Source: Auriscalpium vulgare (taxonomy: Eukaryota; Basidiomycota; Agaricomycetes; Russulales; Auriscalpiaceae). Taken from it: a stretch of DNA of 64,000 nucleotides. Numbering within the stretch: the stretch's first letter is position 1; every line of letters begins with the position of its first letter. A program made the translations under genes and the position numbers. The notes under the pieces are model-generated. The model was not told where the DNA came from. It searched no databases and saw only the letters and a program-made list of their open reading frames with translations. Below are positions 1-5,483 of the stretch, piece by piece. Location of the stretch: positions 1 through 64,000 of the forward strand of contig JAHBBC010000021.1 of NCBI GenBank assembly GCA_019915015.1, in the 5' to 3' direction.

Positions 1-20
1 TAGTGTTGCGGGAAAAACCT
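1..20. repeat. Left terminal inverted repeat of the hAT element
   Basis: TAGTGTTGCGGGAAAAACCT is the inverse complement of 5301-5320 with a single mismatch at base 4. The window starts exactly here, so one or more outer bases and the target duplication could be missing. Confidence 0.85.
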
Positions 21-42
21 CTGGCCAGTATCCCCCCGGTAA

Positions 43-91
43 GGTACCGGTGGCGCTCCTAGCCGGGGAGGTATCAAACCGGTACCGTACC
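43..91. repeat. Left subterminal GGTACC repeats of the hAT element
   Basis: The palindrome GGTACC occurs at 43-48 and 81-86 in the context CCGGTACCG or GGTACCGG. It occurs again near the other end at 5245-5250, with degenerate copies around 5213 and 5262. hAT transposases commonly bind short subterminal repeats, so these are candidate binding sites. The assignment is inferred from position and repetition only. Confidence 0.5.
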
Positions 92-379
92 AGGGAAATA
101 GTCACGTGATGTTTAGTTCCCACGCAGTAGCAGCTCGATTTTCGCGTACACACGAGGATTTGGAATGGTTTCAATGCATCAGATGAAGATTTAGCAGTGT
201 ATGTATCCATAGCCAAATTGCCAGAGCTTAGCCGTAGGTGCCCCGACCTGTACGAATTCGCTGCTGCCTGCTACACAAGTGTCATGATTTGTCAGCAGAC
301 GCGGCTTTTGCAAGGCTGCCGCAGCACTCGAGCGTACATTGTAACAACGCGTACAATACATACTGAAACCTCGGGAGGC

Positions 380-3300
380 TTATTGAAACAAGGCATCTGT
401 GCTGAAATCATTGTCCTCTTCATCAGAATCTGGTATGCTCTCGTCCCTAGCCTGACCTGCACTGACTCCGACAGCAGGGTTCCGACGTGCAGGAAGCTGA
501 GCTTCCTCCGCGAGGACATCAGATAAAATTGCAGACCTCAGGTTGATGTGAGGCATCTTGATGAAAGCATTGGCAGGTTCGTACGGTTCTGCCAGGTCTT
601 CACCTTGAACGTCATTGTCGTCTTCTTCGTCCGACATCGGTGCGGGTGCGTTTTCTGAAGAGGGGAATACCTTCTTTTCGATGTTGTAGAACTTGACCGA
701 AGGGAATTGATTAGTGTGCGCGCACACCTGCTCGAATGGTTGGAACACTGTGTACTTCAATAAAGAACGGAGGTTGCTTACCTTGCTCTTAGACATGTGG
801 TACTGTCGGACTTGAGTCATTGCAGACATGTTATGCACGGATAGCCGATTCCTATGCTTTGGAGTAAGCCATGTGAATGTAGAGCCAGTCCGTTCATCGG
901 GCATGGAGTTGACTCGGACGGAATACAGTTTGATAGCGAGATGCTATTCATGACAGCATCAGTCGGCAGCGCTCGGTGAATCATACGGACACGAACACGT
1001 ACGGAAGGATGTGCACATTATCAGAGCCAACACGGCCCTTCCACCACTTAAGGACCGCCTGCGGAACCGTATCGTCGAGCGGATGATCGAATGGGAACTG
1101 GTGTCGAGCATAGGCTAGAGTTTCCCTGTGAAGTTGGGCTGTAAATGATTTCCCTTTTTTTGCCCACTTCAAGAATGCCTTCTTATGGCCATGAACGATC
1201 TCTTTCTCTCCGATGTTGGCTAAGAAGCGGACAACGGACTCGAAAATTGATGGATGCCGAACACCAATGAGTGTCACCTTCTCGCCTTCCGGTAGCCACA
1301 GGTCCGACGTGATAAGATCTGATTGATGCACACATAAGACAGCGACGAGATGCAAGCAAAAGAATGGCTCTAACCAGGGTTCAGATATGCTGCAGCAAGG
1401 TATGCATTATTAGCTATGTTGCCATCCAGAAAGAGTTGGCGATGTCGCGCATTGAGGATGCCGCGGATGGCGTTCGCGACCTCAGCGTCAAAATACAGCC
1501 TAGGATTTTGAAAGGCGTCCTCTGTTGCACGAATAACAGCATGCCAGAATATATAGACGTCGGCAGCAGTTGCCTCCAGAGCCTCCAGGCAGGCTAATGC
1601 CTTTGTTGCAGGCAAAGTGGCCGCGATGAACTGGGAGAGACCAGACTCGAACTTGAATGTCTGGTGATCATCCGGTGCAGGCTGAAAATACTCAGCAATT
1701 TCCTGCGAATGTTGTCAGCAAGTCATTTCGTCTAGTCGATCCATCAATTGTACCTCATAAAGTCCGTTAGGCGATTCACGGATGACTTTCTTGATCGCAG
1801 CTGAGGACCGATGGACAGAGCGAGCAGAGAGCGGGATTGTTGCGAATCTCGTCTTTCCGATAGCCTCCAGGCCGCGTCCTGTCTTTAGTTTTTCACGAGC
1901 TTTCTTGAGGGCTGCATGTCCAGCGTGCGAGGTATGAAATAATGTTATTGTCTGCCGCACCACACGGATGATCTGGTTGCGGATTAGATCTGATTAATGC
2001 TGGTAGTGTGGACGTTTGCGCACCGGTTTGAAAACATCAATGAGATTAATCTCAAGGATTGTGCGATTCAAGTGATGGCAAACATCCGCAAGATTGAGCG
2101 CAGTGGGCATGAGGGCCAGAATTGCAATGGAACGCGAGGCTCGCGTGTTACCCGTGCTATCACATGTCAGGCCGGAAAACCTGGACGGACCGATGGCATT
2201 GACAATCTGCGCGAAGTTGTTAGAAATCGCTGAAGTAGTTAAGTTCCAATGCCCACGTACCGGACTTGCGACATTCTCAACGATCCAAGGTGCAGTGTGC
2301 GACTCGGAAGTTGCCTCCCGTGTGTCCATCAAGTATACTTCACGGTCTGAGGTCGAGACGTGTACAGTCCAGTAGGACTCACGACCTGTCGAAGTTCCGC
2401 CGTCATAGGAGAGAGTGAGGTCTTCCTGACCTTGCAGATACTTGAGTTGCTCCCGGCGGACCCACGATGCTTCGTTTACGATGCCTTCATATTCGAGCTT
2501 GTCTCTGGTTGAAGGTGCATATGATGGTAAGGCAATCTCAAGCATCTCCTTCCACTCCGGGCGCGAGACGATATATGTTGGCAAACCCGCGACGCATATG
2601 AGTTTAAGAATGGCAAGGTCGAGCTTTCTGTGACGCTCGAGCTTCCCAAGCGCCTTTGCTTGCCGAAAGAACGCATGTGTCGCGGCGCCTGCATCTTGCT
2701 TCTCCCCATCTTGTCCAATTCCATCTTGAGCTCCTAGTTCCTTCGCAACCATCATGGATCCTTTCGAATTGGTGAGCTCCTGGACCTGCGCAGACAGTGC
2801 CTTTCCAGCTGAATGTATGTGCACTTTCTCCCGCAGCTCTGAGGACAGCTTGGGGCAGTCCTTTGCATGACGAACGACTCGGATCAACGCTCGATGTCGG
2901 AAAGTATGATGGCAAGGGTTATCAGGACCTCCGACACAGCGCCAGAGCAGCGTAGTTGGATTGTCGCGGCGATAGCAAGCCTCGGTGAGAGCGTCCATCA
3001 GAGGATCCGGCGGCCGTCCTCCCCGGCGCGCATCCTTCTTCGGCTGCACCCATTTGACAAGGTCACCAGGGTTAAGCTCAATCTCCATGTCGCTCCCATC
3101 TTCTTCCCCCATCTCGTTCACATACGGAGCTGCGCCGTCCGCAACTCCTTCGGCATCTGATTTCTGTTCATCGAGCTGCTGGTCTTGCAGTACCGGTGAA
3201 CTACTAGGCTGCTTGTGCGTAGCGACTGTGTTTCCGCCCGAACGCTTTGCAACCTGTAAGCAAAGCTTCTGTTACTTACTGCTGTCGCGCGCTGACAACC

Positions 3301-4887
3301 TCTTTGGGCACTTACAGTTGACGTTCCAGCAATATGCAGATTCAACGACGCCGGTTTGAAGACCTCGTCCCACTGCTGCTTGCTCCCCGCATTGCCGGAA
3401 CTCTCCGCCGGTTCCTTTCCTTTCGAAGCGGCATTTTTCTTCGTGCGTTTGGCTGGCACGGTGAGTGGCGTGACATTGGTGGCTACACTCAGTCGCCTCT
3501 TAACGACGCCTTCTAGACTCAATAACTGCGGCTTCGTGAACGCCGATGTGTGCGCACTTGCCCGTATAAGCATGCCAGGCGCTAGCATATTGGACTTGTA
3601 TTTGAGACTGTCCTGCACTGTCGGTGAGTCGAGTCCGCAAGTAAGTGAAGCTGAGCGCGCACTGACCATGTCACGTAGGTAACACATTATGTCAGCAAGG
3701 TGTCGAATGCGTTGCACGACACAGTCTGTATCCGAGAGGAGATGGATGTCGTCGGGGATGAGATGGTGAGCAAGAGAATTGTGGCTGAGGACAGAGCAGG
3801 AGAAGCTGTCGAGCTGTGGGGTGCATGGTAACACGTTGAGTGAAAGCGGCCCAGTCGCTCCGTGTTGTCCTAACCACCATTCTATCATCTCCAACAGCTC
3901 GCGGGGCGGCTTCCGTCCAAGAGAATCAGCATAGAAAGCCGTGTGTGGCTCTACGCTGACCGCAATGGACACCCAGTGATTTGTCTCGTGTACGGCTGCT
4001 GGCAAGAGCACATCCGCGCCATCGATCCGCACCCCGATCGTCATTCCAACCTCCTTGAGTGATCCATCTTGCAGCTGCGAGCCAGCCAATCGTAGGGGAG
4101 TGATGCCGCGCATTGATTGGTAAGATGTTCCGCTAGCATTGAGTCGTGCGCGGTTGCGGTACGTGTCAATGAGCTTGACTGATGCCGCACTCGGCAGTAT
4201 ACATGCCGGCTTGCCTTGTCTTTGCAGACGATGACCTAGCAGCATCCCCAGCTGATCCATATGCTCCGCCGCCAGCCAACGCCGACCACAGTACGATGTA
4301 AGCGTCTTTGGATCGACGCCCATCGTCGTTGGGAGGGGTACGTCCCATGGCCAGTCGTCGAGGAGTGCTGACGTGTCTGCAGCAAGGGACTTCACCTCGT
4401 CGTTGAGCAAGCCCTCGGTCCAAGTCTTCAACCACGCAGTGGCCAGAGAAAGGCGCGCCTTGGCAGCGAGTATGCGCCGGACCTCGTACCAGTAGGTGAG
4501 AACCCACATCGGGGTTTTGAGTGTTTGTTGAGTGACCGACTCTTGAACAGGATAGCCCAGGCAAGCATAGCCTGTCTCTAGGGCGGGGTTGACGCGGTTT
4601 TGCAGGATTTCCAACACCTCGGTGTGCGGCGGCATCGGCCTAGAGAGCAGGACCATTGCATTTGCGGCCGTTATGAAGCTTTGGCCCTTCGAGAAGAGTG
4701 TGCTCTGCTGGAGCAGAGACGGCGCGTTCGCCTCCGGTGGGACAGGGAAATCTTGGATATCGGCATTGCGCAGGGCTGGTGTGGGTAGTAGGACATGTTT
4801 AATGTCGTCGGGAATGGGTATTCTTTTGAGGATATCACCCAGAGTTTGAAATGAGTCGATGTCGTGGATGACCTCGTCGTCCGCCAT
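380..4887 (-). CDS. Ulp1-like C48 protease fused to hAT transposase
   Basis: Spliced model: complement(380-943, 987-1318, 1375-1702, 1754-1972, 2024-3253, 3316-4887). This totals 4,245 nt, an exact multiple of three, giving about 1,414 residues. Residues 1-524 hold a Ulp1/SENP-like cysteine protease: His304 in NHW, Asp321 in ADSLG, Gln358 and Cys364 in QLDSFSC. A Cys/His-rich, BED-like stretch follows near residues 630-657. The hAT core comes next, with Asp808 (SYDGGT) and Asp889 (TCDSTGNTR). The dimerisation tail (DERTGSTFTW) starts near 1243, and the C-terminus is acidic. The 62-bp intron at 3254-3315 (GTAAGT..ACAG) keeps the protease frame open into the transposase. A further in-frame 54-nt intron may exist in the last exon. 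The third catalytic acid of the transposase was not pinned down. The protease could process SUMO-like conjugates or host factors; that is inference. Confidence 0.82.
3254..3315 (-). other. Intron that joins protease and transposase frames
   Basis: Read on the minus strand it has a GTAAGT donor after an ACT codon and a CTTACAG acceptor before GTT. It is 62 bp long and phase 0. Without splicing, the protease frame runs to a stop at 3118, overlapping the start of the transposase frame. With splicing, the two frames become one. It therefore decides between one fusion protein and two separate products. Confidence 0.75.
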
Positions 4888-5300
4888 TTGACAGTTTTGA
4901 GGGTTGGCAAAATGTGCTAGGCCAGTGTCGAAGGTGAAGATTGCGCCCTCATTTAGTCACTCACTACGGAGTGTAAATGTCGATCACAGCAACGGGTCGA
5001 TCATACACACGTTGCTGCATACAACACTCTTGCAACTATCCCATGCCGAGGCGGGATGTGTCTAATACCTCCTTAAACATCCGCGTAGCATTGCACAACC
5101 ACCTTACGACTGCCGGCCATGTCTGCGTGCGAGGCTGCGAGCCTCATGGCTCATGGGCCGGCGCCGGGCGCCGGAGGGGCCGACACACATCACGTGCTGG
5201 AGGTATTGTACCGGGTATATTGGGGCCCAGGGCAGGGCAGGTATGGTACCGGTACTATACAGGTACATTACCGGGGAAAAACTTTTTCGGGGAAAAACTC
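4888..5300. promoter_or_regulatory. 5' region of the hAT transposase gene
   Basis: These 413 bp lie between the start codon of the minus-strand gene (4887) and the right inverted repeat, so they must contain its promoter. I see no clear TATA box. The outer part (from about 5210) is packed with GGTAC-type subterminal motifs and two copies of CGGGGAAAAACT (5272-5283 and 5288-5299). Confidence 0.5.
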
Positions 5301-5311
5301 AGGTTTTTCCC
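5290..5311. repeat. Hairpin at the right end of the hAT element
   Basis: GGGAAAAAC (5290-5298) and GTTTTTCCC (5303-5311) form a perfect 9-bp stem with a TCAG loop. The left arm is one of two tandem copies of a GGGGAAAAACT motif spaced 16 bp apart. The right arm is part of the terminal repeat. The left end has no matching hairpin, so the two ends are structurally unequal. Confidence 0.6.
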
Positions 5312-5320
5312 GCAACGCTA
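5301..5320. repeat. Right terminal inverted repeat of the hAT element
   Basis: AGGTTTTTCCCGCAACGCTA is the inverse complement of bases 1-20 with one mismatch. Host sequence begins at 5321 and runs 163 bp to the stop codon of the neighbouring MARVEL-type gene. Confidence 0.85.
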
Positions 5321-5483
5321 GCGTGGGGTTCGCACTCCAAGCACCTGCATCTGCAAGACGTACATATACACTGGTATGTACGGCACATTGATCGTTAAAA
5401 GTACATCACTTTCATATAGATATCGTCTCAAACGAGCGTAACTCCCCCTATGTCCCCAAATAAATGTCGTAAAATCCGTGAAA

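Follow-up and report, generated by a model that had tools for sequence, protein, structure and literature searches.

A hAT transposon family of Auriscalpium vulgare whose predicted gene joins a Ulp1-type protease to a Hermes-like transposase

The first 64,000 nucleotides of contig JAHBBC010000021.1 of the basidiomycete Auriscalpium vulgare (the window, meaning the whole stretch analyzed) begin with a gene on the minus strand (4887–380), in which a C48-like protease frame, forming exon 1, is followed by a hAT transposase. This arrangement raises the question whether one gene unites both enzymes and, if so, what a protease might contribute to a transposon. A preliminary description of the locus had proposed one gene in which a Ulp1-type protease and a hAT transposase are fused. 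Support for this comes from homologues, from a diverged paralogue in the same genome, from predicted folds, and from the target-site duplications (TSDs) and terminal inverted repeats (TIRs) of the surrounding element. With at least tens of near-identical copies, the diverged paralogue and occurrence in other genera, the architecture lies far above chance.

Introns were predicted from the sequence, and guidance by the Artomyces pyxidatus protein P0001 led to an eight-exon model with the following features.

3316–4887, minus strand: exon 1 (residues 1–524) with start codon, helical N-terminal region, C48 protease and linker
4294–4743, minus strand: helical N-terminal region (approximately residues 49–198), modelled with low confidence, common to P0001, the paralogue on contig C24 and P0027 of Rhodofomes roseus
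3721–4293, minus strand: C48 (Ulp1-type) core (residues 199–389), assigned by alignments and predicted fold
3978–3976, 3927–3925, 3816–3814 and 3798–3796, minus strand: codons of the putative C48 active site His304, Asp321, Gln358 and Cys364, respectively
3355–3396, minus strand: linker motif GNAGSKQQWDEVFK, continuous with the transposase frame in the C24 paralogue
3254–3315, minus strand: intron 1, 62 nt, GTAAGT...TTACAG, whose removal unites the protease and transposase frames
2261–3253, minus strand: exon 2 with linker, GGRP motif, zinc finger and start of the RNase H fold, including Asp808 (codon 2404–2402)
2855–2938, minus strand: BED-like zinc-finger ligands Cys630, Cys638, His653 and Cys657
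2207–2260, minus strand: intron 2, 54 nt, in frame, P0001-guided, previously overlooked
2024–2206, minus strand: exon 3 with Asp871 (codon 2161–2159)
1973–2023, minus strand: intron 3, 51 nt, with a clear counterpart in the C24 paralogue
1754–1972, minus strand: exon 4
1703–1753, minus strand: intron 4, 51 nt, its position merely approximate in the C24 paralogue
1375–1702, minus strand: exon 5, part of the transposase helical insertion by analogy with the P0003 model
1319–1374, minus strand: intron 5, 56 nt, with a clear counterpart in the C24 paralogue
1003–1318, minus strand: exon 6, which in the window copy lacks one base at its 3' end relative to 21 other copies
944–1002, minus strand: intron 6, 59 nt by homology (43 nt in the preliminary description), with a C24 counterpart
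782–943, minus strand: exon 7 with the hAT C-terminal dimerization region and the putative third catalytic acid Glu1221 (codon 895–893)
728–781, minus strand: intron 7, 54 nt, in frame, previously overlooked, with a C24 counterpart
380–727, minus strand: exon 8 with the acidic C-terminal tail and the stop codon

Relatives thus indicate eight exons and seven introns, in place of the six exons without frame error reported before. The latter do reconstruct to exactly 4,245 nt with a terminal stop only, and the 62-nt intron joining both frames (3315–3254) is sound judging by its boundaries. The six-exon model was rejected because it keeps two 54-nt introns as coding sequence and places the donor of the sixth intron 16 nt too far downstream. 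Its uninterrupted frame holds with this displaced donor, whereas the 59-nt intron shifts the frame of the window copy. Since CTTCCG precedes the sixth intron in the C24 element and in the other copies of the window family alike, we consider the 59-nt intron to be the homologous one. With this intron, the window copy frameshifts at residue 1205, losing Glu1221 and the rest of the dimerization region, so that the PF05699 region is out of frame. Within 22 copies it is unique for this one-base difference at the end of exon 6, which may reflect either true inactivation or an error at the contig end. Intact copies exist, with conceptual proteins of 1,373 (L008-type) and 1,376 residues (L014-type) free of internal stops. 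Contig and element share their first base, as though the repeat had broken the assembly, and it is this end copy that carries the difference near position 1002.

The surrounding transposon is complete and occupies window positions 1–5320, with 20-bp TIRs bounding both ends.

1–20, plus strand: left TIR TAGTGTTGCGGGAAAAACCT; the contig begins here and the left TSD lies beyond the assembly
5301–5320, minus strand: right TIR, one mismatch compared with the left TAGTGTTGCGGGAAAAACCT
5321–5328, no strand: presumed right copy of the 8-bp TSD, inferred from the flanks of other copies, its partner lying beyond the contig start

The left flank is lacking because the window opens contig C21 of a 51.6-Mb genome in 96 contigs. 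In DNA searches the best 28–40 of 72–87 candidates were scored, making all copy counts lower bounds; near-identical full-length places amounted to at least 28 including the window (best 28 of 87 candidates). The 20-mer end matched the genome 142 times (73 forward, 69 reverse) versus zero matches for the reversed control pattern. Of these 142 ends, 100 were listed and used for pairing: 96 formed 48 pairs and four stayed unpaired. Spans of the listed pairs were 5,294–5,336 bp in 47 of the 48 and 8,720 bp in one, which encloses approximately 3.4 kb of other sequence. Short internal-deletion derivatives, usual in hAT families, were not seen among the listed pairs, which fits a recent burst. The 8-bp flanks were identical in 18 of the 19 copies having both flanks (20 copies were cut out, of which the window copy has no left flank), and 13 of the 20 extracted copies were identical across 5,330 bp. 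The 20 copies fall into five sequence types, distinguished by a 9-bp in-frame insertion and by 13 single-base sites, of which two are gaps. The family has thus apparently been mobile recently. Two copies stand out: L021 is full-length with 8-bp flanks that do not match, perhaps by recombination between copies, and L028 (C7:325200-334200) has an insertion of approximately 3.4 kb near its right end, whose junction shows 11 bp of overlap resembling a target duplication. The idea that a transposon had inserted into a host gene was rejected, as the TIRs enclose the entire gene and both have been amplified together.

A second Ulp1-hAT element resides in the same genome (L029:1279-6214 = C24:327078-332013, 4,936 bp), having the TIR TAGGGTTGCGGG and the 8-bp TSD GCCGTGGT on both sides. 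At least one full-length genomic match was found for it (best 40 of 75 candidates scored). Compared with the window element, its protease is 36% identical and its transposase pieces are 37–67% identical, with the order kept; one in-frame stop is located within the transposase. Clear GT-AG introns correspond to window introns 3, 5, 6 and 7 and an approximate one to intron 4; a limited donor list did not locate intron 2, though the alignment breaks there. The best candidate for the junction intron (2789–2837) follows directly after the protease core. The C24 linker with GNAGSKTEWDNVF continues without a break into the transposase frame; in the window family, GNAGSKQQWDEVF is found at the end of the protease exon. 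Alignment of both linkers scored 68, matched by none of 2,000 shuffles; the window family and P0001 scored 61 (reached in 3 of 2,000) and P0001 and C24 scored 56 (11 of 2,000). Two independent neighboring genes were rejected on this basis: a two-gene model would require the linker to be part of the protease gene in the window family and of the transposase gene in C24, while a fusion explains both.

Extension of the analysis toward other fungi gave 26 proteins in a transposase profile search. P0001 (1,377 residues) covers 98% of a 940-residue query and can be aligned over the full length of the spliced gene. A local hidden Markov model (HMM) of the protease module, trained on a set including P0001 and P0005 without P0012, matched three of the 26 at E <1e-5, namely P0001, P0005 and P0012, all of which are annotated as joined protease-transposase proteins. 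The outcome named beforehand as speaking against the fusion, relatives in which both parts always stay separate, thus did not arise. The match of P0012 (Suillus weaverae, E 1e-8) is independent of the training. A weak match was obtained for P0002 (Tricholoma matsutake, E 0.038) and nothing convincing for the other 22 proteins. Twenty of these have 129 or fewer residues upstream of the alignment, many being fragments, and the alignment of P0025 begins inside the transposase, rendering all 21 uninformative on the protease. Another protein search with a fusion profile returned P0027 alone; as it omitted P0001, P0005 and P0012, it is no census of fusions.

In the protease part, His304, Asp321, Gln358 and Cys364, correctly numbered in the preliminary description, follow the order of the fold and align with P0001, C24 and P0027. 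The Gln-Cys block is absent from the P0005 gene model, and P0012 has that block only. Structure prediction points to a core of the Ulp1/SENP/adenain type, i.e., a C48 fold acting on ubiquitin or ubiquitin-like proteins. The Pfam family PF02902 was passed by the C24 paralogue (30.3 bits) and P0027 (31.9 bits).

Regarding the transposase part, the prediction yields an RNase H-fold DDE domain with a large helical insertion resembling Hermes, as expected for hAT. The 20-bp TIRs and the 8-bp TSDs, the latter in the window family as well as in the C24 paralogue, agree with this superfamily. Copy L008, represented by its spliced transposase part, scored 21.5 bits for the dimerization domain PF05699 (cut-off 21.4). 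The four zinc-finger ligands are invariant in four aligned fusions, without a Pfam zf-BED match. In Pfam, the spliced transposase of the window family had no DUF659 match; this cut-off was passed by P0002, P0006, P0008 and P0013, with P0001, P0003, P0004 and P0012 below it and P0005 showing none. A Pfam scan of window pieces left two middle transposase pieces without match, besides DUF1280 at chance level (E 0.15); this weak unspliced signal was resolved because splicing and fold supplied the identification. Sequence profiles against the PDB gave no match for the transposase alone and eight weak ones for the fusion profile, including unrelated proteins; a Xanthomonas C48 enzyme (E 0.17) and Hermes (E 0.2) appeared at the expected places. 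In NCBIfam, P0001 and P0027 obtained nothing above chance level, and exon 1 had no match at all.

Based on these data, we propose a recently amplified hAT element encoding one polypeptide, in which a tethered protease would act as a local deconjugating enzyme at the transposon ends, and we give this reading about an even chance. From its N-terminus, the chain would run from a helical region through a C48 protease of the deubiquitinase/deSUMOylase type, a basic linker and a zinc finger to the Hermes-like transposase. Judging from TSDs, TIRs and predicted fold only, the transposase part would bind the TIRs, pair two ends, excise the element and insert it with an 8-bp staggered cut. As protease and DNA-binding module share one chain, the action of the protease would be local: it may strip SUMO most likely, NEDD8 or ubiquitin less likely, off proteins gathered at the ends. 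Silencing factors, repair factors or the transposase itself are candidate substrates, and deconjugation could help the element to excise, escape repression or complete repair. Since relatives in other fungi share the join, both activities probably work together during movement of the element. The structure of the element, its recent mobility and the conserved fusion are established, and we infer deconjugation at the ends. More tentatively, and at somewhat below even chance, these elements could represent an Agaricomycete hAT lineage with an integral, long-conserved Ulp1-type domain removing SUMO (or a relative) at the ends, in which intron retention may free the protease.

Several observations weigh against the proposed local deconjugation by a fused protease. 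All splice junctions are predictions, and exon 1 of the window scores 15.0 bits for PF02902, below the cut-off of 20.7. The protease model, built on an alignment of five sequences, has a mean predicted local distance difference test score (pLDDT) of 47.8, and only the core (approximately residues 211–380) reaches ten-residue block means of 56–90. P0013 has 246 upstream residues, making it informative, and is devoid of the protease by HMM; therefore the fusion is not universal in the transposase family, while being present in several genera. Near-identical copies cannot reveal whether movement needs the protease, L027 is a cut stretch without gene start, and exon 1 of L028 has one stop. In addition, the NEDD8 protease NEDP1 ties with SUMO proteases in the fold comparison, and the predicted fold does not tell a preference for SUMO from one for NEDD8 or ubiquitin.

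This last point is shared by the first alternative, in which NEDD8 or ubiquitin is targeted instead of SUMO, e.g., protecting the transposase from degradation. Several SUMO proteases score equally, the fold being unable to decide, and we assign this option a minor though serious chance. An unlikely alternative is a captured passenger with little role in transposition, as transposons often transduplicate Ulp1-like genes. It gains support from the relative P0013 and from repeated capture of ULP fragments in plant MULE and CACTA elements (PMC2528002). Retained function is argued for by the same-strand, same-order fusion with intact His, Asp, Gln and Cys in two diverged families of the genome and by protease sequence in other genera. 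Less probable still is regulated splicing into two products, with a free protease of approximately 589 residues upon retention of intron 1 and the fusion upon its removal, providing a soluble/tethered switch. The exon 1 frame indeed stays open across intron 1 to 3118, and in C24 a retained junction intron would end the protein inside the intron (protease frame open to 2830). Intron 1 has good consensus splice sites, however, and a constant fusion is favored by the linker, which precedes the junction intron in the window family and follows it in C24. Finally, cleavage of the fusion by its own protease to free the transposase, suggested previously and favored by GGRP at residue 602, a motif placed after the protease and ahead of the zinc finger, is very improbable: C48 enzymes of this fold recognize a folded ubiquitin-like protein, no such domain ahead of a diglycine was noticed on reading the fusion (no dedicated search was run), and GGRP also occurs in P0003 and P0013, whose gene models have no protease, and therefore fits better as a DNA-binding motif.

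How, then, does the local deconjugation reading relate to known systems? KDZ elements, basidiomycete DNA transposons with a transposase of another superfamily, are said to carry Ulp1-like proteases. Hermes and the fungal hAT7 elements (PMC12730594) share short TIRs, the Hermes-like predicted fold and the C-terminal hAT dimerization domain with the window element, which differs by its N-terminal C48 protease. Its 8-bp TSDs are usual for hAT, those of hAT7 being 7 bp (PMC12730594). Some hAT7 elements have a TET/JBP gene beside the transposase, and the words Ulp1, protease, SUMO and peptidase are absent from the main text of that paper (PMC12730594). Ginger1 likewise combines a transposase with a Ulp1 or OTU protease in one protein, but its transposase is integrase-like (Gypsy-type), its protease C-terminal, and mostly Hydra elements are tabulated; its authors suggested for these domains a possible role in switching on repair, either while transposition proceeds or afterwards (PMC2836005). 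MULE and CACTA are cut-and-paste elements with Ulp1-like coding sequence too, differing by mudrA or Tnp2 transposases and plant hosts; grapevine MULEs have ULP in either orientation downstream of the transposase open reading frame, and hAT elements with captured genic sequence are described in section 10 of that paper, with no ULP named in them (PMC2528002). CryptonF and CryptonS also have a C48 peptidase, combined with a tyrosine recombinase instead of a DDE transposase, and some CryptonS peptidases reside on an additional protein (PMC3212892). Ulp1 domains are hence already published for MULE, CACTA, Ginger1 and Crypton, and the Ulp1-hAT fusion would be the new part. It was not found in the open-access full-text literature searched (Repbase and subscription journals being outside this scope), and within that literature the earlier assessment as little described holds.

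If true, no hAT transposase with its own deSUMOylase domain would have been known before, as far as our searches reach. Ulp1-like proteases recur across unrelated transposons, and the window element offers a compact, apparently recently active case with both enzymes on one chain. SUMOylation has been reported for a host factor used by Sleeping Beauty (PMC10138897), and the fusion could tie SUMO-based silencing to transposon counter-defense in fungi.

Two further matches concern the spread of these sequences. P0009, a transposase fragment annotated in Auriscalpium vulgare, is 89% identical to the window family, being the closest among the transposase-profile matches, and may be a near relative or a recent transfer. 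P0027 (1,970 residues) shares this module of helical region and C48 protease, being 24% identical across 340 aligned positions (E 4e-15), but its remaining >1,500 residues match no Pfam family at E 0.1 and are not this hAT transposase; we guess that they belong to another mobile-element protein. This suggests that the helical plus C48 module may move between mobile elements.

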